From assembly GCF_014207185.1 (NCBI RefSeq), contig NZ_JACHCP010000002.1, positions 558,001-622,000 of the forward strand: 64,000 bases of DNA. Direction: 5' to 3'. The DNA is from Rhodanobacter sp. A1T4. GTDB lineage: Bacteria > Pseudomonadota > Gammaproteobacteria > Xanthomonadales > Rhodanobacteraceae. The translations under genes were made by a program, and so were the position numbers. The notes below the pieces were generated by a model that was not told where the DNA came from, did no database searches, and saw only the letters and a program-made list of their open reading frames with translations. Shown in pieces: positions 17,627 through 31,503 of the stretch (its first letter is position 1; each line of letters opens with the position of its first letter).

Positions 17627-17702
17627 GGCCGGGTAGCTCAGTTGGTAGAGCAGGGGATTGAAAATCCCCGTGTCGGCGGTTCGATTCCGTCCCCGGCCAC
17701 CA
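17627..17702 (+). tRNA. tRNA-Phe (GAA)
   Basis: A 76-base cloverleaf with acceptor arms GGCCGGG and CCCGGCC, discriminator A and encoded CCA at 17700-17702. The anticodon stem GGGGA/TCCCC holds the loop TTGAAAA with anticodon GAA at 17660-17662, and the T-loop is TTCGATT. Its last 15 bases are the left part of a 21-bp direct repeat that recurs at 25166-25186, marking it as the integration site of the adjacent element. Confidence 0.97.
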
Positions 17703-17708
17703 TGTAGA
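17688..17708 (+). repeat. Left attachment site (in tRNA-Phe 3' end)
   Basis: A 21-bp sequence containing CCCCGGCCACCATGTAGA, identical to 25166-25186. The first 15 bases are the T-arm/acceptor/CCA end of the tRNA; the other six extend past it. The match ends on both sides (C versus G before, T versus A after). Confidence 0.93.
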
Positions 17709-17898
17709 TAGGGCAAGCGGTTGATACTTAACCGCTTTATCCCTCAACCATCTGAAACATACCCACAGTTCTACCCTCAAACATTTTTCGGCGCCAGATC
17801 TTCGGCTCGACGCTGAATTGGCCCAAAGTCATTCGCTCAACTGCGAAGCTTGCGGATTGCGGATGCGCGCAGCGCCTAACAAGCTTTAATCACCCAAC

Positions 17899-17919
17899 AA
17901 AAAACCCGCGCATGGCGGG
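17899..17919 (-). terminator. Terminator for the leftmost minus-strand genes
   Basis: On the minus strand, stem CCCGC/GCGGG with a 5-base loop is followed by six T. It lies 27 bases beyond the stop of the gene ending at 17946 and closes the 18675-17946 gene pair. Confidence 0.82.
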
Positions 17920-17945
17920 CTCTCGGGATTACGTGAGGTTATGGG

Positions 17946-18266
17946 TCATTTGAAAATGAATGGCCACGCCCATTTAAGAGCTGCACCAAGGACGATCAGC
18001 AACAAAGCGCCGAGGATCGTCCACTGCACGTTACTCACTACGCGCAGAAGCTCCGCGCTGGTCGGCATGTGCGACAGCCGTTCCTCGATACGCCCAGCTG
18101 ATACCTTGATGGCACCCAGGTCAGCATCTATGCGCTCCACGGCGCGGTCCAATCTGTCGATGCGCTCTTTCATACCGTCATCATGGGGTGGCTCATTGCC
18201 GCCTGCAAGTCCCGAAGGGTGATTTTCGTTGTCTCCATAGCTTCCGAGCTTGTGCAAAGTTCCCAT
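17946..18266 (-). CDS. Small coiled-coil protein with C-terminal membrane helix
   Basis: A 106-residue protein of unknown function. A polar N-terminus is followed by a coiled coil (MKERIDRLDRAVERIDADLG, then I-K-V-S-A-G-R-I-E-E-R-L at about residues 32-65) and a single membrane helix (T-I-L-G-A-L-L-L-I-V-L-G-A-A-L) close to the C-terminus, which ends W-P-F-I-F-K. This layout is frequent in small phage or island proteins of the XhlA/holin-accessory type, but the similarity is architectural only. It lies one base after the zinc-ribbon gene and ends at a terminator. Confidence 0.72.
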   Translation of the reverse strand: MGTLHKLGSYGDNENHPSGLAGGNEPPHDDGMKERIDRLDRAVERIDADLGAIKVSAGRIEERLSHMPTSAELLRVVSNVQWTILGALLLIVLGAALKWAWPFIFK

Positions 18267-18267
18267 G

Positions 18268-18675
18268 TCAATCCTTCATCATCTCGGCGTAGCGAGTGGT
18301 TTTAAGCCATTGCATGACGGCGGCTAGGGCCATCATCCATATTGTTCCGCAATTCGAGCAGGAGAGCATGATGACCGGAGTGAACAAATCTACGTCAACC
18401 CGACTCTCATTTTTTGCCGCAGGTATTCCATTACCTCCTACCTCCGGACTCGAATAAACGAACCAGCCCTCGTTCCCACAACGGTGGCACTTTATGTCGG
18501 TAATTCCTTTGGCTTTATGGAACTCCTCGAGCATTTCCGACGAAATGTACGGCAGATCCGTCAATCCAGAAAGCGCGTTCTTATAACCCTCAGCATCCAT
18601 TTCCATCAGTTTCCCCAGATCCCGATCTAGCGCAAATCGCGCTCGTTGAATATAGATACTTGCCCTGTATTGCAC
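18268..18675 (-). CDS. Hypothetical protein with zinc-ribbon cysteines
   Basis: A 135-residue protein not recognised as a known family. The helical N-terminal half (residues 1-58) is followed by two CxxC pairs, I-K-C-H-R-C-G-N-E-G-W-F and L-S-C-S-N-C-G-T-I-W, separated by about 38 residues: a zinc-ribbon pattern. A hydrophobic stretch M-M-A-L-A-A-V-M-Q-W follows. An internal Met (M-E-M-D-A) could be an alternative start. It is immediately upstream of the coiled-coil membrane protein on the same strand, so the two probably form one transcript. Confidence 0.7.
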   Translation of the reverse strand: MQYRASIYIQRARFALDRDLGKLMEMDAEGYKNALSGLTDLPYISSEMLEEFHKAKGITDIKCHRCGNEGWFVYSSPEVGGNGIPAAKNESRVDVDLFTPVIMLSCSNCGTIWMMALAAVMQWLKTTRYAEMMKD

Positions 18676-18712
18676 ATCATCGCATGAGACGGCAGCCGTC
18701 TACCCTGCAGCC

Positions 18713-18880
18713 ATGCCCCGACAACCCAAACGCGCTAAATCCTTTTCGTTCGATCTGCTGGCCGACTGGTCAGCCGTTGCAGCGCCCCTGGATGCTCACA
18801 ACAACCACCTAGGTTGGGTGCTGCATGGGACGGCTATCCGATGCACGAATGGTATCGGCCTACGCAATCTGAGGCTGTAG
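18713..18880 (+). CDS. Small ORF of 55 codons, possibly a remnant
   Basis: An open frame from ATG 18713 to TAG 18880 encoding a basic N-terminus (MPRQPKRAKSFSFDLLADWS) and a short tail. No strong ribosome site is visible (CCTGCAGCC before the ATG). It fills the gap between the zinc-ribbon gene and the XRE gene, on the opposite strand. It may be a genuine small island gene or the 5' end of a decayed larger one; I do not recognise it. Confidence 0.35.
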   Translation: MPRQPKRAKSFSFDLLADWSAVAAPLDAHNNHLGWVLHGTAIRCTNGIGLRNLRL

Positions 18881-18938
18881 GTGATTTCCGAAGACGACGT
18901 AAGACGCTTGAGCCCATTGCGTTGAGAGTGGTTCAGCC

Positions 18939-19217
18939 TTAGCCGCCGCTCGTCCGCTTTTTGACTCGCCTCTGAACTGGCGCGTCATCCATTTTCTCGG
19001 CCAACTCGCGCGCGAGAATAAAAACTTGATCTAGCGATTGCGACAGCTCGGCAGCAAGTCGCTGCATTGACTTGAGTGAAGGATTGCGCCGTCCCCGCTC
19101 TATCCCGCTGACGTAGGTTCGATCTAACCCAGCCCGGAACGCTAGCTCCTCCTGACTTAAATCAATGCTTTCCCGCAACAAGCGAAATGCGGGACCAATG
19201 TAAGGGGTGATATCCAC
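18939..19217 (-). CDS. XRE family transcriptional regulator
   Basis: A 92-residue DNA-binding protein with a Cro/CI-type helix-turn-helix at residues 12-66 (L-R-E-S-I-D-L-S-Q-E-E-L-A-F-R-A-G-L-D, then T-Y-V-S-G-I-E-R-G-R-R-N-P-S), an R-L-A-A-E-L dimer-like helix and a basic tail. Translation appears to start at GTG 19217. It is divergent from the membrane-protein gene at 19326, and the intervening region holds a repeated GGACTATGA, so it probably represses itself and/or that operon. Confidence 0.85.
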   Translation of the reverse strand: MDITPYIGPAFRLLRESIDLSQEELAFRAGLDRTYVSGIERGRRNPSLKSMQRLAAELSQSLDQVFILARELAEKMDDAPVQRRVKKRTSGG

Positions 19218-19238
19218 TCCCTTACGTTCACTTGATGT

Positions 19239-19262
19239 GGACTATGAAACCACGGACTATGA
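19239..19262. promoter_or_regulatory. Direct repeat GGACTATGA, candidate XRE operator
   Basis: GGACTATGA occurs at 19239-19247 and 19254-19262, start-to-start spacing 15 bases, in the 108-base gap between the divergent XRE gene and the membrane-protein gene. Position and repetition suggest a regulator-binding site. Binding is inferred. Confidence 0.5.
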
Positions 19263-19325
19263 GTCACGTTACTTATAGCAATCGCAGGCAGACAGGTGGG
19301 CGGCAGCCCTCAAGAGTGGGGAGAC

Positions 19326-19772
19326 ATGGCAGCTACACGTTGGAAAATTCCCCTGACTGATTCAGGAACGATGCAGAACATCTTTCGATGGCCTTGGTAT
19401 TGGAGATATCCAATCGCCTTCGGCGGTGTGTTTCTATCGACAGCTTTTTATGCATGGCTCGATCACAACCAAGGAGGAGCTTTCGTCCCTCCTATTCTGG
19501 GAGGCATCGGCGTTTTTGTTTCCCTTTGCGCAGCATGGGAACTGCTTTTGCTTCTCGTAGGATGCGCACTTTTGTGGTTTATCTACGCAGAAATCAGCGA
19601 CGCAAATTGGCATGTTTCGCCGGAGCGGGGGTTGCTGATAATGGCGGCCGCATGGGGGATTTATCTACTGATTAAGCTAGACGAGATGAATAAAACAATT
19701 GCCCAGCTCAAGCATCAGCAATCGATGATGGAGATGGACATTCATAACCTTCAACAAAGGCGCAGGATATGA
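19326..19772 (+). CDS. Multi-pass membrane protein with C-terminal coiled coil
   Basis: A 148-residue protein of unknown function. Three to four hydrophobic segments are visible (Y-P-I-A-F-G-G-V-F-L-S-T-A-F; I-L-G-G-I-G-V-F-V-S-L then L-L-L-L-V-G-C-A-L-L-W-F; G-L-L-I-M-A-A-A-W-G-I-Y), followed by a cytoplasmic coiled coil of about 30 residues (M-N-K-T-I-A-Q-L-K-H-Q-Q) ending Q-Q-R-R-R-I. ATG 19326 follows GGGGAG; a GTG at 19296 would add ten residues. It overlaps the next gene by ATGA and faces the XRE regulator. Cargo of the island; a role in phage exclusion is conjecture. Confidence 0.68.
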   Translation: MAATRWKIPLTDSGTMQNIFRWPWYWRYPIAFGGVFLSTAFYAWLDHNQGGAFVPPILGGIGVFVSLCAAWELLLLLVGCALLWFIYAEISDANWHVSPERGLLIMAAAWGIYLLIKLDEMNKTIAQLKHQQSMMEMDIHNLQQRRRI

Positions 19773-20014
19773 AACCCGTGATCTTAGCCTTAGGTCTAAT
19801 TTTGGCCACCGGCGCAGTTGGTGCCGGGACAAGAAACCCGCACCAAAGTGCCTACGCCAGTCACGTTGACGGATACTCGAAGCGCAACGGAAACCGGGTG
19901 GCGCCATCGAACCGCTCGCGTGCCGACGGCAGCAAGACTAATAATTTCTCCTCAAAGGGAAACGTAAACCCGTATACAGGCAGGGCCGGAACGAAAAAAA
20001 CATACGGCCATTGA
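19769..20014 (+). CDS. Small secreted protein with NPYTG motif
   Basis: An 81-residue protein with a signal peptide (MKPVILALGLILATGAVGAG). The mature ~60 residues are polar and basic and contain H-V-D-G-Y-S-K-R-N-G, S-N-R-S-R-A-D-G-S-K-T-N-N-F-S and G-N-V-N-P-Y-T-G-R-A-G. This tyrosine/glycine/asparagine pattern recurs in small exported proteins of many bacteria and their phages, function unknown. Its start overlaps the stop of the membrane-protein gene, so the pair is translationally coupled. Confidence 0.65.
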   Translation: MKPVILALGLILATGAVGAGTRNPHQSAYASHVDGYSKRNGNRVAPSNRSRADGSKTNNFSSKGNVNPYTGRAGTKKTYGH

Positions 20015-20089
20015 CTGCTCCCTAATAACCAAAGTCATTCGCGCGCCCACGCGCGGGCGAAGCGTAGAGAAACCCAGCGAGGCATGCAT

Positions 20090-20374
20090 CTAATCAGCAA
20101 CGGAGCGCTTTGGAAGGTTCGCTGCGACCTTCGCCTTACCCTCTGCGGTGCGCGGCCCTGTTGAATGGCCGCCATGCCATTTACAACGGCGCTTGCCCGG
20201 TACGCTCAGCGCGGTACAGGGCTGGCCATCGCTACGCCGTCGACCGCCGCAAGGCACACGCATATGCGCTGCTAGCCAAGCATGCTTCTGTAGGTAGGCC
20301 GCCGCCCAAACAGGCAACCCAGCTAAGTCATTCGCCCGCGCGCGTACTGGTTCAAAAATTCGCTTTGCCGTCAT
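20090..20374 (-). CDS. HGGxSTGPRT-motif small protein
   Basis: A 94-residue basic protein. The C-terminal half carries C-x(11)-C ... R-C-K-W-H-G-G-H-S-T-G-P-R-T followed by A-E-G-K-A-K-V, the signature of a family of small proteins often encoded on prophages and islands, with probable zinc-binding Cys/His. Function unknown. The N-terminal ~40 residues (F-E-P-V-R-A-R-A-N-D-L-A-G) are helical. It stands alone downstream of the replication operon, on the same strand. Confidence 0.75.
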   Translation of the reverse strand: MTAKRIFEPVRARANDLAGLPVWAAAYLQKHAWLAAHMRVPCGGRRRSDGQPCTALSVPGKRRCKWHGGHSTGPRTAEGKAKVAANLPKRSVAD

Positions 20375-20522
20375 TTTTGCCTCTAACTTGATCGCGCGCG
20401 CGGAAACCGCCTAAATCAAAACTGATCGCTTTCCTGGTGCGTTTGTCTGCAGACCTGTTCTATCTAACGGCGGTATAAGGAGATTCACGAGCTGACTCAG
20501 TTCGTCTGTAAATCATTGTTAT

Positions 20523-20753
20523 TTATTCCGGAAGCTCGCCAGCGGCGATCAGCACCAGCGCATCAATCACTCTGGAATAGTCGCCCCGCTGTGCGCCGAT
20601 AATGCGCAAAGCTTCATCACTGGGGTAGTAGTCGATGCGTGGGTACAATTTCCGGCTCTCGCGCTGCTGCGCCAACTTTCGAGCCTTACGCCACACTTGC
20701 CAGTCGGCGTGGTCGGCAGCCGTCACGAGGGGTAAGCCCGGTTGCCATGTCAT
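20523..20753 (-). CDS. Small protein, last gene of the replication operon
   Basis: A 76-residue protein of unknown function starting MTWQPGLPLVTAADHADWQV, with a charged helix (W-R-K-A-R-K-L-A-Q-Q-R) and Y-P-R-I-D-Y-Y-P-S-D-E-A-L-R-I-I. The ATG overlaps the TGA of the preceding gene (ATGA). A longer frame exists but would duplicate coding of the upstream gene. Being the last member of a five-gene overlapping run suggests a DNA-metabolism or regulatory role (inference). Confidence 0.65.
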   Translation of the reverse strand: MTWQPGLPLVTAADHADWQVWRKARKLAQQRESRKLYPRIDYYPSDEALRIIGAQRGDYSRVIDALVLIAAGELPE

Positions 20754-21208
20754 AAGGCCACCGACGGACGCGGAATATAGCCACCGGCCTTGCGCACAAA
20801 ACACCACGGGCAGCCCAGCGCACGCGGCCAATGGTCGACCACCGGCAACACCTCGGCAATGCTCGGATGTATCCAGACCGGGCCGCACAGTTCGCAGTGC
20901 ATCGCCGCCGTGTCGCCAGCCGGTACACGTCCGGCATGTCGGTCGTCGGTGTCGCGCTGCATCGACTCAAGTGCAGCAAGCTGGCAAGCGTCTAACCGTT
21001 TTAGTGCATCAGTCGCACCAAGCGCACCAGACGCACCAGAAACGGCACTTGGACACGCACCATGCGCAGGTTCTTTTGGTGCGCGGCCATTCCCTTGCAA
21101 AACGTTATCTGCAAGAACCTTGAGCGATGTTTTAGGGCTTTGGTGCGTTGGTGCATTCTTTGGCGGTGCACCCGCGCACCAGGTTCCGTTCGGGTCAGTC
21201 ATCATCAC
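20750..21208 (-). CDS. Hypothetical protein with C-terminal cysteine/histidine cluster
   Basis: A 152-residue protein overlapping both neighbours (14 bases with the ATPase gene, 4 with the next gene). The N-terminal third is low in hydrophobicity and reads through TGGTGC repeats, giving S-G-A-S-G-A-L-G-A-T. The C-terminal third has M-H-C-E-L-C-G-P-V-W-I-H and L-G-C-P-W-C-F-V, a probable zinc-binding domain. The N-terminus (W-C-A-G-A-P-P-K-N-A-P-T-H) resembles a segment of the upstream ATPase. Family not recognised. Confidence 0.65.
   Translation of the reverse strand: MMMTDPNGTWCAGAPPKNAPTHQSPKTSLKVLADNVLQGNGRAPKEPAHGACPSAVSGASGALGATDALKRLDACQLAALESMQRDTDDRHAGRVPAGDTAAMHCELCGPVWIHPSIAEVLPVVDHWPRALGCPWCFVRKAGGYIPRPSVAL
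21014..21182. repeat. Cluster of TGGTGC/GCACCA repeats, site A
   Basis: Eight copies of GCACCA or its complement lie in 168 bases: 21015, 21024, 21033, 21057, 21077, 21141, 21149 and 21176. The first three are tandem 9-mers (CGCACCARR type, 21014-21040). The 21141-21182 part forms a dyad (two TGGTGC, then two GCACC) that recurs at 22171-22212. Roughly 0.1 copy would be expected by chance. The cluster overlaps coding sequence. Iteron-like origin or operator function is inferred. Confidence 0.6.
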
Positions 21209-22310
21209 AGTTCCCCCGTTTCGGCGTGGGCTTTTTTTTCGGCTTTGGCTTCGGGATGTAACGGCCCGCGTCTTTTGCCTTGTTCAGTGCGCGCACTACG
21301 GTCGAATGATTCACACCCAGCTCGCTGCCAATCTCGCGCATGGTCAGACCCAGCCCAGCCAACTCGATCATTTGCTCCTCGCTGGCATCGGATACCGCTC
21401 GCGTCGCCCATGTCTGGTTCCCGTCAGGCAGCGTGGTAAGCGCGGCCTCGAAGGGAGACACATCCTGCCCATAGAGTGCGCGGGCTTTCTCGAAGTGAAC
21501 CTCGAACCGTGCGCCCTGATCGGGTTCGTAATCAGCGGGCTTGCGCAGCGCAATGACGGTGTCGAGAACGTCTTCGCGCTTAGACGTGCCGCGTTGCTGG
21601 CCTCCCTTGCCGGCGTGGTGAACGAAAACAACGCTAAGACCTTGCGAGCGCATTTGTAACGCCCACTCCTGGACCGGCTGCCAGCTCTCTCCCTCGTTCT
21701 CTTTGCCACCACGTACAAGACAGCTCAAGTTGTCCACGATAATCACGCGGGCATTACCTAGAGCCGCGGTGACGGCTTCCCGACCTTCCGGCCGATATAG
21801 GTTAGGCATCACGCCATCCTCTTGCAGGTCGGGCGTGACAAACCGCAGGTATCCGTCCGCTGCCTCGCGTTCATTGCTGGCGATAATCGTGGCAACGCGA
21901 GCTTTCAGATCCGCGCCCGGCATCTCACCATCCAGATACAGCACAGGCGTTTGCACCGTCGCCTTCCAGCCCAGGAACTCGCCACCCGATGCGAGCGCGT
22001 ATGCAACGCCTAGCGCCATGTGCGTTTTGCCGATGCCGCGCGGCGCGTAAATCATCGCGAGCGACTGGGTCGTGAGCCACGGCTTCAGCAGCTTGTCGCG
22101 CGGCGGAAAACTTTCGGACAAAAGCCCTGCAGCATCTACCGCCACGACCTTACGCGGCAGCCTCTCCTCGTGGTGCGCTGGTGCGTTCATAGGATTTGCA
22201 CCATTGCACCAAGGCGAACCCACGGTACGTTCGACAGTGGCCAAGTCGCGTTCGGCGCGTTCATCCAGACTGCGGATGCTGGCGGGAAGTGGTTCCGCGG
22301 CGGGCGTCAT
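21195..22310 (-). CDS. RepA-like AAA ATPase (helicase-type) of the island
   Basis: A 371-residue ATPase of the RepA/AAA_25 type, related to hexameric plasmid helicases. Seen: Walker A Y-A-P-R-G-I-G-K-T-H at about residues 88-97, L-Y-L-D-G-E-M-P, Walker B V-I-I-V-D-N-L-S, sensor segment V-V-F-V-H-H-A-G-K-G-G-Q-Q-R-G-T-S, then a C-terminal helix-turn-helix (L-G-L-T-M-R-E-I-G-S-E-L-G-V-N) and a Lys/Pro tail. It overlaps the primase-like gene by four bases. An internal ATG at 22191 (M-N-A-P-A-H-H) is an alternative start and lies within a TGGTGC repeat. Confidence 0.85.
   Translation of the reverse strand: MTPAAEPLPASIRSLDERAERDLATVERTVGSPWCNGANPMNAPAHHEERLPRKVVAVDAAGLLSESFPPRDKLLKPWLTTQSLAMIYAPRGIGKTHMALGVAYALASGGEFLGWKATVQTPVLYLDGEMPGADLKARVATIIASNEREAADGYLRFVTPDLQEDGVMPNLYRPEGREAVTAALGNARVIIVDNLSCLVRGGKENEGESWQPVQEWALQMRSQGLSVVFVHHAGKGGQQRGTSKREDVLDTVIALRKPADYEPDQGARFEVHFEKARALYGQDVSPFEAALTTLPDGNQTWATRAVSDASEEQMIELAGLGLTMREIGSELGVNHSTVVRALNKAKDAGRYIPKPKPKKKPTPKRGNCDDD
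22171..22212. repeat. TGGTGC repeats, site B (42-bp copy of part of site A)
   Basis: TGGTGC at 22171 and 22179, and GCACCA at 22198 and 22206, each pair spaced 8 bases. It aligns over 42 bases with 21141-21182, mismatching mainly at spacer positions. It lies in the 5' part of the RepA-like gene and spans the alternative start at 22191. Confidence 0.6.
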
Positions 22311-22759
22311 ACCAGCACCTCGCGAGCGGTGTCGATTCGATCAATAGCGAGCGCCAGCCGTTCGGCATCGGTATCGTTCAACACGAGGCCGGCTGCAAGG
22401 TCATGCGCGGCGATACTGATAACTTTCGCCTCTCGACCTACGACGCCAAGTGCCGCACCCCATCCCGCTTGCTTGAACGCTTGTTGCGCTGCGCGCCGAC
22501 CTTCGGGGGTTGTATCGCGGATGCGTTCGGGGAACAGGTCACCCATCTGCAAGCCGACAGCATCGAGAATCGCAGGGGTGTCGTGGCAACTGAAACAGGT
22601 CACAAGCAACGCGCCGTTGTTACCCTCACCTACGCTCAGCTTGCGAGACTTGCCGCCACAAACCGGACAGCATGCGCGCCACCCCTTGGCGGTCTTTTGG
22701 ACCCCATCAAGACGTGCCAGCAGCAGAACAGATGGGGCCAAATTAGGAGGTGCACTCAT
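22307..22759 (-). CDS. Primase-like zinc-finger protein
   Basis: A 150-residue protein with an N-terminal zinc finger C-C-P-V-C-G-G-K ... C-F-S-C-H (residues ~30-60) of the kind found at the start of phage and satellite primases, then D-A-V-G-L-Q-M-G-D-L-F-P-E-R. It lacks the catalytic Toprim/primase domain, so it may be a partial primase that works with the ATPase encoded next. The start M-S-A-P-P-N-L overlaps the AlpA stop (ATGA); the stop overlaps the ATPase start. Confidence 0.78.
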   Translation of the reverse strand: MSAPPNLAPSVLLLARLDGVQKTAKGWRACCPVCGGKSRKLSVGEGNNGALLVTCFSCHDTPAILDAVGLQMGDLFPERIRDTTPEGRRAAQQAFKQAGWGAALGVVGREAKVISIAAHDLAAGLVLNDTDAERLALAIDRIDTAREVLV

Positions 22760-22986
22760 TCCGCGGCCTCCTGAGCGTCCATCCACGCTCGTATATCCTC
22801 ACACTTCCAGGCAGTGACGCGCTGGCTGAGTTTTAGAGGTTTTGGAAATTTTTTATCCGCTATCCAACGCCAAAGTGTGCTGGCTCCTATAGGAAGGATG
22901 CCGGCGATTGGTGGCTCAGCTTTCGGGTTGCCCAAAAGCTGGGCTTGACGCAAAAAGCCTGTAATGGGTATGGCGTTTGGTTGCAT
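22756..22986 (-). CDS. AlpA family DNA-binding protein
   Basis: A 76-residue MerR-like helix-turn-helix protein: G-A-S-T-L-W-R-W-I-A-D-K-K-F-P-K-P-L-K-L and V-T-A-W-K-C-E-D-I-R-A-W. AlpA proteins of P4-like elements activate integrase expression or act as excisionases. It heads the overlapping operon that runs to 20523, and a pair of palindromes lies 77-104 bases upstream. Confidence 0.88.
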   Translation of the reverse strand: MQPNAIPITGFLRQAQLLGNPKAEPPIAGILPIGASTLWRWIADKKFPKPLKLSQRVTAWKCEDIRAWMDAQEAAE

Positions 22987-23062
22987 GAAGTGGCTCCAAT
23001 CAAGACCCGGCGGGCCTTGTTGGAAGCCTATTATTCACATGCAGAGCAATCCGAGGCGCAGC

Positions 23063-23090
23063 CGCTAGCGGTTGCGCTTAAGCGCTAGCG
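23063..23090. repeat. Two CGCTAGCG palindromes, 20 bp apart
   Basis: CGCTAGCG at 23063-23070 and 23083-23090 (both followed by RTTG), with palindrome GCGCTTAAGCGC between them. The site lies between the stop of the 23085-23660 gene, which it overlaps, and the alpA start. Two-helical-turn spacing fits a cooperative regulator site; function is inferred. Confidence 0.45.
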
Positions 23091-23660
23091 ATTGGACGTT
23101 TTCCGAAACTTAGCAACCCACCTCCTGATGCCGTCATAAGTTGTGTTATTCACTTTAGAAACTGTTTCCCCTGCAAAGCTTTTAACCGCACCCCGCCTTG
23201 TTCTTTCACGTAAAGGAAGCCGATTCCACAGCTCCAAAACTGTCGCCTCGGCTTCTGCCTTATCAGCGTTTGTAAGTGCTGCACCAGCACTTTTCCTGCT
23301 TGATGCATGGTTAGCCGCCTTGTCGAGCGTCTTAACGGTTCCGGCCAATTTTCTTTTTATTTCGCTGTTTTGAATACCGATCGCGACCCGGTTTGCATCC
23401 CCGTGTATGAGCATTCCCATAAGGTGAGATGCGAGTAAAAGCATATTTTTAGCGTGAACGCGTAATTCTTTAGGGGACATTTCGTCTATGTCTGATGCTC
23501 CCTTAGCGACCATTTCATGACCGATCATCTTTAGCACCAAAGTTCGGCTTTGATTTTGGTCATGCAGGCGCAATGCATCAGCAACTTGCGTCGCGTTCTC
23601 CTCGATAAGAGCCGCAAACAAGACGTCATCTCCTGTCGATGCACTTTTTTTTGCGGCCAT
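23085..23660 (-). CDS. Hypothetical island protein
   Basis: A 191-residue, largely helical protein. Features: basic N-terminus M-A-A-K-K-S-A, A-L-I-E-E-N-A-T-Q-V-A-D-A-L, V-H-A-K-N-M-L-L-L-A-S-H-L-M-G-M-L near residues 70-86, and a basic C-terminal half with R-L-P-L-R-E-R-T-R-R-G-A and Y-D-G-I-R-R-W-V-A-K-F-R. No known domain recognised. The C-terminal basic helices suggest nucleic-acid binding (weak inference). It stands between the integrase and alpA on the same strand with gaps of 110 and 98 bases. Confidence 0.62.
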   Translation of the reverse strand: MAAKKSASTGDDVLFAALIEENATQVADALRLHDQNQSRTLVLKMIGHEMVAKGASDIDEMSPKELRVHAKNMLLLASHLMGMLIHGDANRVAIGIQNSEIKRKLAGTVKTLDKAANHASSRKSAGAALTNADKAEAEATVLELWNRLPLRERTRRGAVKSFAGETVSKVNNTTYDGIRRWVAKFRKTSNR

Positions 23661-23770
23661 AGCGCAGACCCTTGCCCTTTCAAAAGGAGCCGCATCCGCC
23701 TGAGAAAGTGTCAGGGTTTCGGGGATAAGCCTAGACGCGGCGTTGAAATGGTCAATCTCGTGATTGGCCT

Positions 23771-24985
23771 TTACCGACGCGCTCGGCGTCTAATTGGTAT
23801 GACGTCCGCGCCTGACCGCTTCGAGTCGACCAAGTCGGCCCAGCTCTGCAGCAAGTCGCGGCGTTCGTCGATATACGCCGCGCGGTGGTAGGCCGCACGC
23901 ACTTTGTCCTTTGCTACGTGCGCTAGCGCGCGCTCGATGACGTCGGGCTGATGCCCGAGCTCGTTCATCGTCGTGCTAAAGGTGGCCCGGAAGCCGTGTG
24001 CGGTAATGTCGCCAGTTTCGTATCCCATGCGCCTAAGCATCATCAGCAACGCATTCGCCGTGAGCGCCTGTTTCGGCTTTGATGGACTCGGAAACACGAG
24101 GTCACCGCCGCCTGTGAGAGGACGCATGCGCTCCAGCAACGCTAGGGCTTGGCAACTTAGCGGCACCAAGTGGTCAGCGTCCATCTTCATGCGGTCTGCG
24201 GGTATGGTCCACACTTCGGCGTTGAAATCGACCTCAGACCAGCGCATGCCCCGAATCTCGCCCGATCGGCTGGCTGTGTAAACCAGTAGCTCAAGTGCCG
24301 CTTTCGTTTCGGGGTAGGTAGCCACCGCGTCGAGGCGGCGCAGGAAGTCAGGCATCTGATCGAGCTTGAGCGCAGCGTGGTGCTGCACGCGTTTGGTGCG
24401 GATCACTCCAGTAAGCTCGCGGGCTGGGTTGCTGTCAGCACGCAGCGTACGCACAGCAAGCGCAAAGACAGCTGTCATCCGTTGCAACGCCCGGCGAGCC
24501 ATGTCGAGGGCTTCGCGTTTCTCGATGCGCTTTGCAATCGCCAACACCTCGGCCGGCGAGATGTCCCTGACAGGCCTATCGCCAATGGACGGAAAGATGT
24601 CGATCTTGAATTGCGACTCGACGCGGGACATGTGCGATACGCGCCACGTTGCCCGGTGGATGTCTAGCCATTCCTCAGCGACAGCGCGGAACGTGTTCCC
24701 CGCGGCGACTTGGGCCTGAGCCTTGGCCTGTTTACGAAGAGCGGCCGGGTTCTGGCCTGCACGTAGCTTGGCTCGGGCATCCTCGCGCTTCGCGCGGGCA
24801 TCAGCGAGCGACACGTCGGGCCATTGGCCTAGGCTGAGCATTTGCTCCTTGCCGGCGTACCGGTAGCGCAGTCGCCAGAACTTCCCGCCGTCTGGCTGCA
24901 CAAGCAGGGTCAAGCCATTGCCGTCCGCCACCTTATAGGCACGTTCGACAGGTTTAGCGTTCTTGATCTGCAGCAGATTGAGCAT
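23771..24985 (-). CDS. Tyrosine recombinase, P4-type integrase
   Basis: A 404-residue integrase catalysing site-specific insertion into tRNA-Phe. The N-terminal DUF4102 domain (residues ~1-85) contains A-D-G-N-G-L-T-L-L-V and R-L-R-Y-R-Y-A-G-K-E. A SAM-like core-binding domain follows (~100-190). The catalytic domain has Arg in T-A-S-R-S-G-E-I-R, H-G-F-R-A-T, H in R-A-L-A-H-V, and Tyr in A-A-Y-H-R-A-A-Y. It is 180 bases from the right attachment site. The dyad at 24989-25011 abuts its start codon and may autoregulate it. Confidence 0.95.
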   Translation of the reverse strand: MLNLLQIKNAKPVERAYKVADGNGLTLLVQPDGGKFWRLRYRYAGKEQMLSLGQWPDVSLADARAKREDARAKLRAGQNPAALRKQAKAQAQVAAGNTFRAVAEEWLDIHRATWRVSHMSRVESQFKIDIFPSIGDRPVRDISPAEVLAIAKRIEKREALDMARRALQRMTAVFALAVRTLRADSNPARELTGVIRTKRVQHHAALKLDQMPDFLRRLDAVATYPETKAALELLVYTASRSGEIRGMRWSEVDFNAEVWTIPADRMKMDADHLVPLSCQALALLERMRPLTGGGDLVFPSPSKPKQALTANALLMMLRRMGYETGDITAHGFRATFSTTMNELGHQPDVIERALAHVAKDKVRAAYHRAAYIDERRDLLQSWADLVDSKRSGADVIPIRRRARR

Positions 24986-24988
24986 GCG

Positions 24989-25011
24989 GGTAACCCCTTG
25001 CGAGTTACCCT
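24989..25011. promoter_or_regulatory. Inverted repeat GGGTAAC/GTTACCC at the integrase start
   Basis: Seven-base arms at 24989-24995 and 25005-25011 with a 9-base spacer, 4 bases before the integrase ATG on the coding strand. A second dyad CCCTCAA/TTGAGGG spans 25009-25035. These could be arm-type recombination sites or an operator for integrase. Function inferred. Confidence 0.45.
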
Positions 25012-25165
25012 CAATTTACCCACAAAGGTTGAGGGACACAATGGGCTTACATGGGATGGCTTGATTCCATCGATAGCCAGTAAATAGCTTGGTTACGCCG
25101 TTTTATTACCTTGCCGACTGTTCCATAGCGTCCCATCCCGACCCATGAAAACACCAGTTAGTTAG

Positions 25166-25186
25166 CGTCCCCGGCCACCATGTAGA
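25166..25186 (+). repeat. Right attachment site
   Basis: An exact copy of the 21 bases at 17688-17708. Only the 3' end of the tRNA is duplicated, so the copy is not a tRNA gene. It marks the distal end of the integrated element. Confidence 0.93.
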
Positions 25187-25196
25187 ACAATGACTT

Positions 25197-25222
25197 AGCC
25201 TACTCTATCGAGTGGGCTTTTT
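25197..25222 (+). terminator. Probable original tRNA-Phe terminator, displaced by the element
   Basis: Stem AGCCTACTC/GAGTGGGCT (one G-T pair) with loop TATC, followed by a T-run. It lies 10 bases after the right attachment site, where the tRNA terminator would have been before integration. Between here and the gene ending at 25390 (25223-25389) I see nothing further. Confidence 0.78.
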
Positions 25223-25389: not shown

Positions 25390-25644
25390 CTATCTTTTCT
25401 TGAGACGCTTTTCCTCTGCAGCTGCAATGAGCTGCTGCAGATACGTTATCCCGTCCTCTTCAGGAAAGAATGCCACTACATCTGCCACGGTGAGCCCATA
25501 CCTTCTCTTCAAAGTAAGAAATTCTGCCTTGGCATGATCCAGTCTGGACATCTGTGGTGTCTTCGAAGACTTCGGATCAGATTGGCTATCCAGCGCGGCT
25601 AATTCTTCCTGAAATTTTTTGAAGGCGTCTTTTGAAACGGTCAT
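25390..25644 (-). CDS. Small hypothetical protein
   Basis: An 84-residue protein starting M-T-V-S-K-D-A-F-K-K-F-Q-E-E-L, highly charged and helical, with L-K-R-R-Y-G-L-T-V-A-D-V-V-A-F-F-P and a Lys/Arg tail (E-E-K-R-L-K-K-R). The arrangement recalls small nucleoid or H-NS-like proteins, but no H-NS C-terminal motif is present, so no function is assigned. The start at 25644 lacks a clear ribosome site; a longer frame would begin at 25746. It lies outside the element, just past the right attachment site. Confidence 0.55.
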   Translation of the reverse strand: MTVSKDAFKKFQEELAALDSQSDPKSSKTPQMSRLDHAKAEFLTLKRRYGLTVADVVAFFPEEDGITYLQQLIAAAEEKRLKKR

Positions 25645-25904
25645 AGCAGAATTGGGGTAGTCAGCATGGAAAGCTATTGTCCCACAGGGTGCGAAAGCCA
25701 AGGTCGCTTCTGAGGTTTCCTGGCGGAAAAGGGGCTCACAATGCAATTTCGCCCCATATTCTTCGATCTGTCTGCGACTGTAGTTTTACCATCGCTGATT
25801 TCACCCTTACTTCTTGTAACCGGTGGGTCAAGCTGCCGGCTTTCGAAAAACCGCCGAAGTTTGGCGTGACGCGTTTGAGATCCTGAGCGGACCTGATTGG
25901 CGGA

Positions 25905-26771
25905 TTACTTTTGTCGAGTATTACCGGAAAGTTCCACGCGTCGATTCGGCGATAAACATGCAATCAGCGCAGTACGATCTTTGTCGGTGCATTTGGCCAC
26001 CGGCTTGGCGCTCCCTCGTCCATCGCTATGGATCGCTGATGCGGAAACGCCGCCCTGGATAAGATAGCCCTGCACTGATTTTGCGCGTTGTTTGGACAGC
26101 AGCAGGTTGGCTTGGCTGTTGCCGATGCGATCGGTGTAGCCGACCACCAGAATATCTTCCATCTGGCTGGCTACCAGAACCTCTTGCATGAACTGACCAA
26201 GGCTCTCACGTCCGCCTTCCGTCAAATCAGCGCTATTGAACGCAAACAGAGCATCCGCCGATAGACGTATCGGTTCATTGGGCAGTGCCACCATGGCCGC
26301 TGGCGCCGCAACGGCTTGCGCTATCGGAGCGGCAGCTTCTGGTTTATCCACAATGAACTTGCACGACTCTGGCTTCCAATGCGTTGCCTGCACGTGATGC
26401 TTGTCGTCAAAAACAATCTGGTACTGGCAACGGGAAAAATCAGCCTCACCATCTTCTCGGCGGAAATTCAGAATGTAGTTCCACTGCTTTACACCGAATA
26501 CACCCTCATCGAAATGCGGCGCACCCAGCAATTTGTAGAGCTGATTTTTTGTCATGCCGAGCGTGACTTGCCGAAGGTTTTCCGGACTGATGAAAGCACC
26601 TTCGGGCGCGGTGGATTTGACGGGATCCGGGAACGCAACTTCCCCCTGCACGCTGCTGGCAACAGGCGTGTGATTCGATAACGTGCTGCAACCTGCAATC
26701 AGCAGCAGCCATGCGCAAGCTACCGGCAATACTTTCCAAGGGTGCAATTTAAGCACTCGAATGACATTCAT
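25905..26771 (-). CDS. TpgA-like lipoprotein, copy 2 (BamE-like + OmpA-like)
   Basis: A 288-residue outer-membrane lipoprotein: signal with lipobox L-I-A-G-C at about residue 28, SmpA/BamE-like domain at ~60-145 (L-G-M-T-K-N-Q-L-Y-K-L-L-G-A-P-H-F), Ala/Pro linker, OmpA-like peptidoglycan-binding domain at ~170-280 (A-L-F-A-F-N-S-A-D-L, V-G-Y-T-D-R-I-G, C-L-S-P-N-R-R-V-E-L). In Acinetobacter, TpgA has this architecture and helps anchor the trimeric autotransporter Ata. It is a diverged duplicate of the gene at 27049-27888, and 277 bases separate the two. Confidence 0.82.
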   Translation of the reverse strand: MNVIRVLKLHPWKVLPVACAWLLLIAGCSTLSNHTPVASSVQGEVAFPDPVKSTAPEGAFISPENLRQVTLGMTKNQLYKLLGAPHFDEGVFGVKQWNYILNFRREDGEADFSRCQYQIVFDDKHHVQATHWKPESCKFIVDKPEAAAPIAQAVAAPAAMVALPNEPIRLSADALFAFNSADLTEGGRESLGQFMQEVLVASQMEDILVVGYTDRIGNSQANLLLSKQRAKSVQGYLIQGGVSASAIHSDGRGSAKPVAKCTDKDRTALIACLSPNRRVELSGNTRQK

Positions 26772-27048
26772 CAGCACCCCTGCCAAAGATAATTGCGCGT
26801 TTCCGTGCTCAATATCTCACTATTACGCACTGACGCCAATCGATAGTGCGTAATCAGCACGAATATCGACCCATTTAGTTATTCATTGACCTTGGTAAGA
26901 GCCCGTCCAAAGTTAGTCGGCACGAAAATGGCGCGATATATGCCATCGCACTGTGGTTTTCTGCCATTACACAAGACTGTGCTGAAGACACCCGCACGCC
27001 AAATCGGCGTAATCCCAGGGGCGGCTCATCGCAACGAGCTGAAAACAA

Positions 27049-27888
27049 TCAGGGGCGCGCGACGCCCGATAGCTCGACGCGACGGTTGGGCGACAGGCAT
27101 TTGATCAATGCGGCGTGATTGGCGTCAGAGCATTGCACTACCGGGTCGGCATTACCCTTACCCGTGCTGTGCATCGCCGTTGCAGGGACGCCGCCCTCGG
27201 CGAGATAGCGCTGCACCGCATCTGCGCGACGCTGGGAGAGCGACAAATTGTAGCTATCGCTGCCGATGCGATCGGTGTAGCCGACGATCGAAATATCCTC
27301 GACCTGGCTCGCCTGCTGTATGCGCTGCAGGAATTGACCAAGATTCTGCCGGCCGTCATCGGTCAAATCCGCACGGTTGAACGCGAACAAAGCATCCCCC
27401 GACAGCCGGATTGGCTCTTGCGGCAAAGGTGCAGCGACGTTTGCCACTGCTGCGGGTGCGGCCGCTGGGGTGTCGAGTTCGGATTTGCAGGATTCCGGCT
27501 TCCAGTAAACGGCTTGCGAGTGGTGGTCTTTGCCAAAAACAACTTGGTACTCACAGCGGGAATAGTCAGCCACTCCTCCTGCATTACGAAAATCGAAGAT
27601 ATAGGTCCACTTTCTCACTTCAAAGACGCCCTCGTTGAAGTCCGGTGCTCCAAGCAAGTCGTAAAGCTGGTCTTTGGTCATGCCGGGCTCGACTTTTCTG
27701 AGGTTCGCCAGATTGACGAAGGTACCTTCAGGTCTGGTGGCCTTGGCTGGATCAGGAAAAGTCACCCCTTCCGTAGCACCGCTGTCTGCAGCAGCATGCC
27801 TGGGCACCTTGCTGCAGCCGACAATCGCCAGTAACCCGGCAAAGACGACTGCCAGAGCTTTCCATCCGTGCGCTTGAAACCGTGGCAT
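27049..27888 (-). CDS. TpgA-like lipoprotein, copy 1 (BamE-like + OmpA-like)
   Basis: A 279-residue lipoprotein with lipobox I-V-G-C near residue 25, BamE-like domain (V-E-P-G-M-T-K-D-Q-L-Y-D-L-L-G), linker and OmpA-like domain (A-L-F-A-F-N-R-A-D-L, V-G-Y-T-D-R-I-G-S, L-S-P-N-R-R-V-E-L). The conserved Asp and Arg of peptidoglycan binding are present. It begins 60 bases after the adhesin stop on the same strand, so it is the likely adhesin partner, as in ata-tpgA of Acinetobacter. Function is inferred from architecture and location. Confidence 0.86.
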   Translation of the reverse strand: MPRFQAHGWKALAVVFAGLLAIVGCSKVPRHAAADSGATEGVTFPDPAKATRPEGTFVNLANLRKVEPGMTKDQLYDLLGAPDFNEGVFEVRKWTYIFDFRNAGGVADYSRCEYQVVFGKDHHSQAVYWKPESCKSELDTPAAAPAAVANVAAPLPQEPIRLSGDALFAFNRADLTDDGRQNLGQFLQRIQQASQVEDISIVGYTDRIGSDSYNLSLSQRRADAVQRYLAEGGVPATAMHSTGKGNADPVVQCSDANHAALIKCLSPNRRVELSGVARP

Positions 27889-27948: not shown

Positions 27949-30900
27949 TTACCACTGCATGCCAGCGCCAATCGACATGCCGCCGTCTCCGCGGGTATCG
28001 ACAGATCCAGTCAACTTGTAGACCCAACGCCCACCTTCGGAGATGGTTGAGACACCGACGGCAATGCTGGACTCACTTCGGAACGTGCCTGCCGCGACAG
28101 CAGCCATGCTCTTTCCAGGCTCATAGGCTTGCGGCAAGCCGGCCATCGCCATGGCTGCTGCAACGCCTGCGTTGGCCCGATTGCCTACCTGCTGGATCTC
28201 ACTGCTGAGCGCGCCAACACGCTGATCGGTGTAGCTGCTCGCCCAGTTTTCCGCCTGCTGCACGCCCGTATTCACCTGCCCCACATTCGCCGCATCGGTA
28301 TCTGACGTCCCTGCAGCAACATTGGTGATCTGTCGCTCGCCACCAGCGGTACCTACAGAAACCGTATTATCCCTATTGGCAAGAGACCCCGCGCCCAGCG
28401 CCACGGAATTGTCCGCAGTGGCTGATGCGCCATTACCCACCGCCACACTATTGGCTCCACTGGCGCTAGCCACTGGGCCGATCGCAACACTGTTCGTGCC
28501 GCCCGCTGTGGCACCACCCAGCGTGGAATTTACCTGGACGTATTTACTGTTTCCGCCGCCGCCCTGCGTGGTGAGACTGTTGAAGTCGTTGTACAGGCTG
28601 TAATTGCTGTACATGTTGCTAGCGTTCTGAGTCCAGTTCCACAGCTGCGAACCATTCACGGCATCCGTACTGGTTGCTGTTTCGGCGCCTGCAGCGACGT
28701 TCGTGATACCGACAGGCGCGCCACTTCCATTGCCAGTAAGGGTAATCGTATTGGTTGGATTGCCAGAGGCGTCGGCATCGTAGAGCACGGCACGATTGCT
28801 CGTACCGCCGCCGCCAGCCGTCGATACGGCCTCCAACTGCGCCAGGTTCACCGCATCATCCGGAGCGGAGCCCGCCGCAACACCGGTGATCTGACGATTG
28901 CCCACGTTCAACTCGCCGGCCGATGTCTGGGGCGCCGAGAGACCGTAGGCGGTGTAGTTGACAAGTGCGCCCACGACGGTTGCCGATCCGGCACCCAGCG
29001 CGATGCTATTCGCAAAGCTGGCATTGGCGCCGTCGCCAACCGCAAGCGCGTCCGCACCGGACGCCACGGCGGTTGGACCGGCCGCTATTGCATTGGTGCC
29101 CGTGGCCTGAGATGCGGCCAGCGTGGAGTCGACGGCGTAATACTTGCTACCAGCCGAATTATTGATGTCGTTGTAGAGACTGGTATTGCTGTACTGATTG
29201 GCGGGATTCAGCGTCCAGTTCCACAGCTGCGCCCCATTTACGGCATCGGTGCTTGTCGAACTCACGGCACCTTGATGGAGGTTGGTCAGGGTGGTTCCAT
29301 TGGTCACTCCGCCATCCGTGCTGGTTACGCCCGCTAGCGTAACGCTGGTATGCGTTGCGGTGTCGTATTGCACTGAATCGCTCGTGTCAGCAGCGACAAC
29401 ACCTTCCAATTGGGCCACGTTCACTGCATCAGTTGCCGCACTGCCAGGCGCCACATTGGTGATCTGTCGCTCCTGACCAGGCGAGCCAATCGAAACTTCA
29501 CCAGCCGAATTCTGGAGTGCGGTAAGCCCATAAGCCGTGTAATTGGCCAACGGTCCGCGATTGGCTATGGACTGGTAGCCGAGCGCCACACTATTGACTG
29601 CATCCGATGTCGCCTCCGCACCGAGAATCGTCTGTGCATTCGCGGTGCCCGAGGCCGAATCGCCAATCACGACCGAGTGCCCGAGGCGCGCCTCGTAATC
29701 GGCTGTCGGCACACCGGTGGGATCCGTGGCATCGTTGACGCCATTACCCGGGAATGCCGTATCGGCATTCACCAGCGGCAAGGTGTGGCTGGCGTTGGTG
29801 CCGATCACGACCTCTTTCGAACCGTTCGCGGTAGCACCGTCACCGACCAGCACCTGATAATCCTGAGCCGCATTGATGCCGTAGCAGGCCACCTGAACCA
29901 CCAGCGCATTCAGACAGGTTGAAGCAAATGCCGGCGCCGCATTCGGCAAGAGGAGACCGAGCACTCCACTGGGGTTGCCGTTGTTGATGTTGTAGATATA
30001 GCTGTTGGAAGTCACGCCGCCCAGCAGGGTGAGATGTGAATTCTCACCCGTGCCGCCTACCAGCGCGCCAGTGGTCGATGTCAGAAGGGTACCCACAGGA
30101 TTAAGCGTGAGCAGAGGAATGCCCAGGACACTGACAACGGAATAGCCCTGGCTGAAATTGGAATTGATGACTTGCAGGGAACCGTTGCTCACATAACCGT
30201 TGCTGCTGGAGAAAAGACTATTGGTCGTGGTGCCGAGCAGTTGGCTCGCCGCTCCCACGAGACCGCCATTACCAACGATAAGGCCAGTAGGCAAACTACT
30301 TGGCGTTGGAAACACTGGCACGGCCGCAGTCACCGGTGCCGCCTGCGAAACTGGAGCTTCCAACGACGACAGCGACGTGGCCGTTGCAACCGAACTCAGC
30401 GGTGAGAATGCCAAGGGAGATACGCCGGTCGGAGATGCGTTCGCAGCAGCAACTTCTGATGTATCGGTATCGTCAAAAACATCCGTGGATTTGGTCTGCC
30501 CCGTATCATTGGCATCAGTGCGATGCTTAAGGCGACGATCGGCGACCTCACTCGTCGAAGCCATCGGACCTGACAAGCTGCTCTTCAACGCCGCATCCGC
30601 AACTACACTCGCTGCGATGGACGCTTTCGGTACCGGTGTCGACGAGGTGGCCGTTGTCGGAGGCGTTGACGCAGCGGTCGCTGCAAGACTCAAGGAAACG
30701 GGAGGTATCGCCTCGACCAAACCTACCTTGTCCGTCGCAGCAACCGTTAACGCAACCGGCTGCTCTGGCCGCTTGATAGCCGGGACCGGTGCGGCAACGT
30801 CAATAGCCTGCACGTCACTCGGACTATCTTGGGTTTTTGTAGTACTCGACTGCTGCGCCAGTTGAGCGCCTACAACCTGCGTAAGCTTTCGATCAGTCGT

Positions 30901-31503
30901 GTCAGCTGCCTGAAAAACAGAACCCTGCGCACTGTTCGGGCTCGCTGATGGGGTCGCTACGGCCGACTGTAGCTGCTGTTGTGATGCAACTGATGCTTTG
31001 GCGAAGACGACTGGCGTCCGACTTGCCACGGTCGACGGAATATCCGCCAATGCGGGGGTAGCCGCGGCAGTGTGGGCTTCACGAGTGGCCGCTGACGCAA
31101 TCCCGGACTGGACGACTGCGGCATGTTTCTTCATTGCGGTTGGCAGTGCAGTGGCAATCGGAGCTTCGTTCGAGACAGAGCTGTTGTTGGCTGCAATCCC
31201 GCTGGAGGCCACCACCTGAGTCGGGGCTGCGCTGGCGTGGCTGGTATCGTATTTCGTAATCAACAGCTGCAAGTCATCCAGCTTTGCATCGCCAGCCGAT
31301 TGAGCCGATACACCTGATGCGAACAACATGCCACTTGCGCCGATAAGCGCAACTAGCAACAACCTGCTTGTCGATCCAGGCGTGCGTCGATCGATCTTGC
31401 CTGCGCCGCTTGATGAGCTGCCGTGGCAAGAGGAAGCCAGCTCCGACGCTACCACCAGAATCTTGCGCGAATGGCACCAAACCAGCCGATATATACGATT
31501 CAT
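27949..31503 (-). CDS. Trimeric autotransporter adhesin (YadA-like)
   Basis: A 1184-residue surface adhesin. The N-terminus has an extended signal region (M-N-R-I-Y-R-L-V-W-C-H-S and A-S-E-L-A) with cleavage near residue 68 (G-V-S-A-Q). Residues ~70-400 are low-complexity Ala/Thr/Ser/Val/Pro. Then come beta-roll head repeats (N-S-I-A-L-G-A-G-S, N-S-V-A-I-G-P) and several neck motifs (E-R-Q-I-T-N-V-A-A-G ... A-V-N). The last ~75 residues form the YadA anchor (A-G-V-A-A-A-M-A-M-A-G-L-P ... M-S-I-G-A-G-M-Q-W). Type Vc secretion; three chains form one outer-membrane pore. TpgA-like partners follow. Confidence 0.95.
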   Translation of the reverse strand: MNRIYRLVWCHSRKILVVASELASSCHGSSSSGAGKIDRRTPGSTSRLLLVALIGASGMLFASGVSAQSAGDAKLDDLQLLITKYDTSHASAAPTQVVASSGIAANNSSVSNEAPIATALPTAMKKHAAVVQSGIASAATREAHTAAATPALADIPSTVASRTPVVFAKASVASQQQLQSAVATPSASPNSAQGSVFQAADTTDRKLTQVVGAQLAQQSSTTKTQDSPSDVQAIDVAAPVPAIKRPEQPVALTVAATDKVGLVEAIPPVSLSLAATAASTPPTTATSSTPVPKASIAASVVADAALKSSLSGPMASTSEVADRRLKHRTDANDTGQTKSTDVFDDTDTSEVAAANASPTGVSPLAFSPLSSVATATSLSSLEAPVSQAAPVTAAVPVFPTPSSLPTGLIVGNGGLVGAASQLLGTTTNSLFSSSNGYVSNGSLQVINSNFSQGYSVVSVLGIPLLTLNPVGTLLTSTTGALVGGTGENSHLTLLGGVTSNSYIYNINNGNPSGVLGLLLPNAAPAFASTCLNALVVQVACYGINAAQDYQVLVGDGATANGSKEVVIGTNASHTLPLVNADTAFPGNGVNDATDPTGVPTADYEARLGHSVVIGDSASGTANAQTILGAEATSDAVNSVALGYQSIANRGPLANYTAYGLTALQNSAGEVSIGSPGQERQITNVAPGSAATDAVNVAQLEGVVAADTSDSVQYDTATHTSVTLAGVTSTDGGVTNGTTLTNLHQGAVSSTSTDAVNGAQLWNWTLNPANQYSNTSLYNDINNSAGSKYYAVDSTLAASQATGTNAIAAGPTAVASGADALAVGDGANASFANSIALGAGSATVVGALVNYTAYGLSAPQTSAGELNVGNRQITGVAAGSAPDDAVNLAQLEAVSTAGGGGTSNRAVLYDADASGNPTNTITLTGNGSGAPVGITNVAAGAETATSTDAVNGSQLWNWTQNASNMYSNYSLYNDFNSLTTQGGGGNSKYVQVNSTLGGATAGGTNSVAIGPVASASGANSVAVGNGASATADNSVALGAGSLANRDNTVSVGTAGGERQITNVAAGTSDTDAANVGQVNTGVQQAENWASSYTDQRVGALSSEIQQVGNRANAGVAAAMAMAGLPQAYEPGKSMAAVAAGTFRSESSIAVGVSTISEGGRWVYKLTGSVDTRGDGGMSIGAGMQW

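Follow-up and report, generated by a model that had tools for sequence, protein, structure and literature searches.

The window analysed here is the whole stretch of 64,000 nucleotides from Rhodanobacter sp. A1T4 (NZ_JACHCP010000002.1, positions 558,001 to 622,000), in which the tRNA-Phe gene of this soil bacterium is occupied by about 7.5 kb of foreign DNA. The unit bracketed by a perfect 21-bp repeat is 7,478 bp long and carries genes for a P4-type tyrosine integrase, an AlpA protein, a protein with a primase-type zinc domain and a RepA-type helicase, together with several small proteins (Table 1). That the DNA at tRNA-Phe is an integrated mobile element can be regarded as practically certain. 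Taken alone, it would be one more small satellite-like island; its interest lies in its kin. Judged by gene content, the element is the bare form of a RepA lineage of which other members carry either a head module or a module of tail chaperone-like and tape measure genes, and the interchangeable virion modules are the larger point.

Two exact copies of the 21-mer CGTCCCCGGCCACCATGTAGA are present in the 64 kb, starting at 17688 and 25166 on the + strand, and there is none on the - strand; the first 15 bases of the 21-mer are the tRNA 3' end including CCA, and the last six lie beyond the tRNA. The runner-up ungapped copy of the tRNA 3' end between 17800 and 40000 scores 10 versus 21, and besides the attachment (att) pair the window contains just one direct exact repeat of at least 21 bp, within two neighbouring OmpA-type genes. 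As looked for in an integrated element, att repeats of a tRNA 3' end enclose a segment with an integrase gene. Near each end lies a pair of TACCCWCA motifs, probably integrase arm-type sites. The window holds six copies (shuffle mean 1.28; six reached in 0 of 100 shuffles), four of which lie in pairs, one pair within 200 bp of either att core, whereas two copies in both segments were seen in 0 of 20,000 random segment pairs of this size (200 bp); the motif was picked after inspection of the ends, and these statistics are therefore flattering. A further motif, AAGTCATTCGC, was dropped as evidence, with three exact copies in the element and four matches at one mismatch, a number reached by 3 of 100 shuffles.

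Comparison with relatives supports the same boundaries. A search with yggX in 45 genomes of the genus, including that of the window, gave matches in 44, and the tRNA-Phe gene was present at 27 of the 29 fetched yggX loci of relatives. In the genomes G025 and G041, the order mutY-yggX-tRNA-Phe is followed by OmpA and YadA-type genes, the same neighbours as in the window, without an element between them. The joined flanks of the window align across the junction with G025 over 478 bp at 88.5% identity and with G041 over 476 bp at 87.0%, 40 bp of each alignment lying to the right of the junction, and the OmpA region farther right aligns again (817 bp at 75.5% and 763 bp at 76.3%, respectively). 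In G025, TGTAGAACAATGACTTAG and a hairpin terminator come after the CCA of the tRNA, and the same 18 nt are found in the right flank of the window. About 0.5 kb between the terminator and OmpA is specific to the window, without counterpart in G025 or G041; it includes a 118-aa gene (25390-25746), which is taken as host flank because four other genomes (L080, L083, L091, L094) have relatives of it on the downstream side of tRNA-Phe. These alignments show that the element integrated into tRNA-Phe at the 21-bp core, moving the terminator away from the gene. The initial annotation had described both the perfect repeat and a terminator moved beyond it by insertion between gene and terminator, and had named a lack of empty sites in relatives as grounds for abandoning the idea; the repeat and the displacement are borne out, and empty sites exist in G025 and G041.

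Table 1. Features of the element and its junctions (positions within the window; aa, amino acids)
Feature	Position	Strand	Basis or remark
tRNA-Phe (GAA), integration target	17627..17702	+	ARAGORN; 3' end intact at left junction
Left att core	17688..17708	+	15 bp of tRNA 3' end plus 6 bp; exact 21-bp repeat, junction test
Two TACCCWCA motifs, left end	17760-17767, 17772-17779	+	Probable integrase arm-type sites
106-aa protein	17946..18266	-	phrog_3556 3.3e-6, phrog_6136 1.1e-5 (phage families of unknown function); coiled coil and membrane helix by eye
135-aa protein	18268..18675	-	CxxC pairs by eye; Pfam matches below cut-off only
Helix-turn-helix (HTH_3) regulator	18939..19217	-	PF01381 2.5e-14; PADLOC Control_protein 2.3e-15
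158-aa open reading frame, cargo	19296..19772	+	Membrane-protein-like by eye; no family matched
81-aa protein	19769..20014	+	phrog_29674 (unknown function) 5.9e-16; signal-like start by eye; 38% relative in OK091 element (L045)
HGGxSTG-domain protein	20090..20374	-	NF041373 4.6e-13; recurs near ends of related elements
76-aa protein	20523..20753	-	Start set by OK091 copy; listed reading frame 121 aa, 20523-20888
152-aa protein	20750..21208	-	Resembles a zinc ribbon by eye; also encoded downstream of repA in related elements
RepA-type helicase	21195..22310	-	PF13481 5e-30 (AAA ATPase); PDB 1g8y, RSF1010 RepA, 6.1e-12; tree
Primase zinc-domain protein	22307..22786	-	phrog_6088 1.1e-5, positions 8-75 of 772
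AlpA, probable excisionase/activator	22756..22986	-	PF05930 2.4e-8
191-aa protein between int and alpA	23085..23660	-	Of 233 family genomes, found in 2 (that of the window and OK091)
P4-type tyrosine integrase	23771..24985	-	PF13356, PF22022, PF00589; PRK09692 287.5 bits, under its 434-bit cut-off
Two TACCCWCA motifs, right end	25006-25013, 25017-25024	+	Probable integrase arm-type sites
Right att core	25166..25186	+	Exact 21-bp repeat, junction test
Displaced tRNA-Phe terminator	25197..25222	+	Directly 3' of the tRNA in empty sites of G025 and G041

Within the element, the integrase holds the arm, middle and catalytic domains of P4-type integrases according to Pfam, and alpA, the zinc-domain gene, repA and two small-protein genes form an overlapping row. 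Two starts in this row were set by overlap or by the copy in Rhodanobacter sp. OK091: the zinc-domain gene probably starts at 22759, overlapping alpA by 4 nt, and residues 46-121 of the reading frame listed for the 76-aa protein are 83% identical in the OK091 locus (L045). Integrase, AlpA and replication module stand in the order of Gram-negative phage-inducible chromosomal islands (PICIs), the replication part consisting of a zinc domain and a RepA helicase; the zinc-domain protein matches just the first 70-90 or so positions of primase profiles that are 772 and 947 positions long (phrog_6088 and phrog_47). The AlphaFold model of the 191-aa protein is too poor for use (pLDDT 54.8). The HGGxSTG protein, the HTH regulator and the membrane-like and secreted-like proteins are cargo of unknown use. 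No structural Pfam family was matched by any of the 13 element proteins, and a PHROG scan of the 44 open reading frames (ORFs) of 50 aa or more that the att cores fully enclose gave no structural family among 25 of the 41 families matched; no terminase was found among the listed matches of either scan. Pfam likewise gave no relaxase or conjugation family in any of the 13 proteins, a scan in which the origin of transfer (oriT) was not searched for.

Relatives of RepA at E 1e-20 or better occur in 7 of 233 genomes of the host family, the window's own included. Phylogenetic analysis was based on 32 rows and placed the RepA of the window in a 12-row clade with support of 100/99. Left out were L047, L048 and L081, which coincide with L084, L087 and L045, L072, which its match values led to be treated as a near-duplicate of L050, and L055, L067 and L076. 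The clade comprises the window, OK091, G044 (L082), G200 (L084), G062 (L085), G131 (L086), G086 (L087, a locus ending at a contig edge), a betaproteobacterial fragment and the IMG/VR records L068-L071. All four rows with a head module group together (96/93), the two with a tape measure gene do not, and the pairing of the window with OK091 is weakly supported against G044 (93/62). One clade of RepA proteins thereby pairs the same replicon with a head module, a tail module or neither, which makes it testable which virion parts satellites must bring and which they can borrow.

The closest relatives differ in the way they are integrated. In Rhodanobacter sp. OK091, RepA is 89% and the integrase 43% identical to those of the window, and the element lies beside the transfer-messenger RNA (tmRNA) gene, with a gene resembling smpB by eye next to it; a search for a second att copy at this tmRNA gave none. 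Its genes run int, 191-aa gene, alpA, zinc-domain gene, repA, 152-aa gene, HGGxSTG gene and 76-aa gene, the last two being exchanged relative to the window. In G044, with RepA at 87% and integrase at 34%, the element adjoins tRNA-Ser and has imperfect repeats of the tRNA-Ser end, matching at 24 of 27 and 20 of 22 positions with 14 bp exact. The closest integrase seen, at 63%, belongs to the G200 element, bounded by a 19-bp repeat of tRNA-Cys. RepA is 87-89% identical in the closest relatives but the integrases have diverged, and therefore core and integrase have separate histories. The 152-aa protein is 78% identical in L045, 66% in L082, 62% over part of its length in L086 and 31% in L085. 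At the element of this clade in G131 (L086, ~2.3-9.1 kb, - strand), a piece of an SLT transglycosylase (1.1e-8) lies downstream, where short frames resemble a broken podophage ejection protein by eye.

Head-module members are represented by L068-L071, in which tblastn places capsid, protease, portal, small and large terminase (TerS, TerL) and head-closure genes beside RepA. In L068 and L070, these reach PHROG matches of 2e-71 for capsid, 7e-117 for portal, 1e-127 for TerL, 3e-31 for TerS, 6e-41 for protease and 5e-31 for head closure. No tail gene was seen by eye in the ORF lists of these two (covering 12.0 of 14.5 kb of the L070 contig), and the zinc-domain gene was matched only in L068 and L069 of the four. 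All four look like capsid-forming PICIs (cf-PICIs). The head proteins of L068 and L070 have no tblastn match in the window, where a head of the element's own, as in cf-PICIs, is not seen.

Tail-module members are represented by G044 (L082) and G200 (L084), each of which encodes a coiled-coil protein, a short protein resembling a tail assembly chaperone (TAC) and a tape measure protein (TMP) of 890 and 924 aa, respectively. The TMPs match phrog_24 at 1e-52 and 2e-49, and that of L082 also matches PF06791 at 4.6e-31; the TAC label is based on the place before the TMP and on a by-eye likeness to the prophage gene found there, no family naming it. Across both loci, a PHROG scan of all 116 ORFs of at least 80 aa matched 43 families; the 25 listed include neither capsid nor terminase, and the remaining ones are, by list order, single matches weaker than 7.7e-14. 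TMP relatives were found in 15 viral contigs, of which L132, L135 and L137, whose genes were listed, are ordinary siphophages by eye; a MuF match accompanied five of six compared. The six compared TMPs measure 811-960 aa, and therefore no shorter tail is predicted for the tail-module elements. The coiled-coil protein folds at a pLDDT of 78.4, and Foldseek gave its model no match below E 0.001 in either BFVD or PDB.

A search with the coiled-coil pair gave matches in 4 of 233 genomes, namely the two sources, G023 and a weak match in G066 unaccompanied by any other query protein. The G023 element (L164, G023:C8:1094000-1113500, ~4.4-13.9 kb, - strand) encodes an integrase 69% identical to that of G044, the coiled-coil and TAC-like proteins, a TMP of 966 aa and a DUF5681 protein; it has no RepA match, and two of its genes look by eye like those of an initiator and a DnaC-type loader. 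No tRNA lies in this stretch. The tail block is thus common to three elements on two different replication modules. A head-module, cf-PICI-like element without a RepA match was also observed in the host's family (L172, G080:C10:55000-74500, ~4.0-12.8 kb, - strand). Given the tail block without RepA in G023 and the head module without RepA in G080, virion modules appear to swap both ways between replication cores.

The element in the window is probably a small phage satellite-like integrative element, a reading favoured by the inclusion of head-module and tail-module elements in its RepA clade. Among 50,697 phage records, 50 match RepA, all below 60% identity (27-32% among the 20 matches listed). 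In such a life cycle, the P4-type integrase would excise the element with AlpA as excision partner or activator, the RepA helicase, the zinc-domain protein and the downstream small proteins would replicate the circle, and a tailed helper phage would provide packaging, head and tail. Possible, yet held only tentatively, is the broader proposal of a kit-like satellite lineage in Rhodanobacteraceae and kin, in which one RepA core would be combined with swappable integrases and att sites and with swappable virion modules (a head set, a TAC-like/TMP set or none), the tail-module members borrowing the helper's head and replacing the tail core.

Several observations weigh against the satellite reading. 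No virion gene was recognised in the element, so that satellite status rests on kinship, and no helper phage, inducer, TerS or cos/pac site was identified for it. In the genome of the window, phrog_24 and phrog_12 have no match; phrog_2 has two weak ones, one of them inside a prophage that is T7-like (podophage) by eye, at G000:C3 ~77-108 kb (L158, L159), with which the element shares no DNA by blastn. No primase catalytic domain was seen in the zinc-domain protein with PHROG profiles. L082 contains a MuF-like head-type fragment matching phrog_2662 (annotated portal) at 7.7e-14, with Pfam Phage_Mu_F below cut-off, and the HTH part of the regulator matches TrbA and MobT below threshold, with 30.7 of 96 bits and 19.2 of 600 bits, respectively; because of this fragment and these weak matches, the satellite reading is rated slightly lower. 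Plasmid records with a relative of RepA number 662, of which 564 are typed conjugative or mobilizable; none of these relatives reaches 60% identity. For the more distant RepA loci, gene content was covered by a phrog_24 search and by the ORF lists of a few viral contigs, and phrog_24 matched in 3 of 23 RepA-bearing genomes or records: the G200 element (G234), the viral contig of L075 and one weak case.

Among other explanations, it is unlikely that the element is a stranded remnant, a former head- or tail-module satellite or prophage that has become inert after loss of its virion genes. The absence of any recognised virion or packaging gene would suit such a history, as related elements do have these modules, but the reading frames of int, alpA, repA and the zinc-domain gene are open, the att cores are identical, and the OK091 element is similarly bare at another site. 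Similarly doubtful is an integrative mobilizable element equipped with oriT only, moved by a conjugative helper while an RSF1010-like RepA copies the circle. The nearest solved relative of RepA is indeed that of RSF1010 (1g8y), and the plasmid-borne relatives and the TrbA and MobT matches, far under their cut-offs, point the same way, but the genes expected of integrative mobilizable or conjugative elements are missing from the Pfam results described above, and the RepA clade includes elements with phage head and tail modules. A relaxase-bearing mobilizable element was rejected, none of the 13 proteins giving a relaxase match in Pfam. Least probable is an integrative replicon spread by generalized transduction or natural transformation without a dedicated helper: replication and integration genes are present and no packaging gene was found, but relatives bear virion modules, and two satellites with AlpA are described as induced by helper phage through alpA (PMC6092414, PMC10803314).

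The satellite reading also accords with the initial annotation, which had likened the gene combination to a satellite-type element in need of a helper; kinship through the RepA clade now speaks for it. The integrase, AlpA and RepA-like genes named there are confirmed by family matches, and the reported lack of structural, packaging and transfer genes agrees with the Pfam and listed PHROG results, but the label primase-like was overstated, holding for the zinc-binding part of primase profiles and not for the catalytic domain.

P4-like satellites encode an alpha primase-helicase and the capsid-size genes sid, psu and delta (PMC4936722). The element resembles them in its P4-type integrase and AlpA family, but the Pfam and PHROG families listed include neither an alpha-type primase nor psu, sid or delta. 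The Pseudomonas satellite AH14b, which its authors infer to be packaged as multimers in helper capsids, differs in its size of 16.8 kb and its own DNA primase (PMC4936722). Closer in layout are the Gram-negative PICIs, exemplified by EcCICFT073, which is driven by AlpA (PMC6092414). They share the terminal integrase gene, AlpA, a replication module, a defined att site and the lack of structural or lysis genes, none of which was found in the 13 proteins by Pfam or among the 25 of 41 PHROG families, whereas the element has a RepA-type helicase with no primase catalytic domain seen and no TerS or cos identified; at 7.5 kb it is also smaller than the ~15 kb quoted for Gram-positive PICIs (PMC6092414). 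With cf-PICIs (PMC12987554, PMC11389934) the link is indirect, as RepA is common to the element and to L068-L071, which have a head module, whereas the element lacks one.

In the phage-inducible chromosomal minimalist islands (PICMIs) of Vibrionaceae, integration at fis is mandatory in the Vibrionaceae model and optional in the authors' first model, and in PICMI115 int, alpA and iolg are needed for excision and prim for efficient replication (PMC10803314). The element in the window differs in that its target is tRNA-Phe, Pfam found no DUF3987/DUF5906 primase, and int and the gene that separates it from alpA do not overlap. A plain cf-PICI or PICMI label was rejected on the grounds of no head module, no fis site and no DUF3987/DUF5906. 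PICI-like elements (PLEs) assemble chimeric tails using their own TMP, and putative tmp genes are described in PLE-like Vibrio elements and cf-PICIs; according to the same paper, a TMP had not been reported for any other satellite (PMC12987554). L082, L084 and L164 are alike in having adjacent TAC-like and TMP genes beside an integrase, whereas the element in the window has neither. The tail-module elements are candidate TMP-encoding satellites in which no capsid was found, and if this holds true they would be a second user of the PLE-type chimeric-tail strategy, outside Vibrio. In a limited literature search, PMC12987554 was the one paper on tail-building satellites, as judged by title and abstract start, and the papers listed had nothing relevant on satellites in Xanthomonadales or on this Rhodanobacter element.

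As regards the cargo, the HGGxSTG protein was found in 24 of 233 family genomes including its own, some matches being weak or containing stops, and a viral-contig scan confirmed no relative. Its gene is also observed in the integrase-bearing elements L147, L149, L155, L157 and L045, some with alpA or the zinc-domain gene and several near tRNA genes. PADLOC matched no restriction-modification partner of the HTH regulator. A known defence island was rejected, as PADLOC, applied to 10 of 13 proteins (AlpA and the 81-aa and 106-aa proteins being left out), gave HTH-type matches and a weak mad8 match to RepA (4.8e-4); the HTH-type matches of the regulator are mostly control-protein and RmrA models, with single weaker ones besides.

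The tRNA-Phe site is a hotspot, since downstream repeats of the tRNA end, 46-48 bp long, were found in 3 of 13 loci tested (of 14 fetched, L092 being left out), at one locus twice. Islands with repeats of this length at the tRNA-Phe 3' end are L090, L091 and L093, L090 having two copies, as of tandem elements. Elsewhere, a stretch at G000:C3:502827-502879 (L005) resembles a degenerate tRNA-Phe with a copy of the tRNA-Phe terminator after it; ARAGORN calls no tRNA there. To the right of the element, two neighbouring OmpA-type genes (25905-27888), the first with a BamE domain, have a 52-bp stretch in common at 85% identity, and a YadA-type adhesin gene (27949-31503) adjoins the pair.

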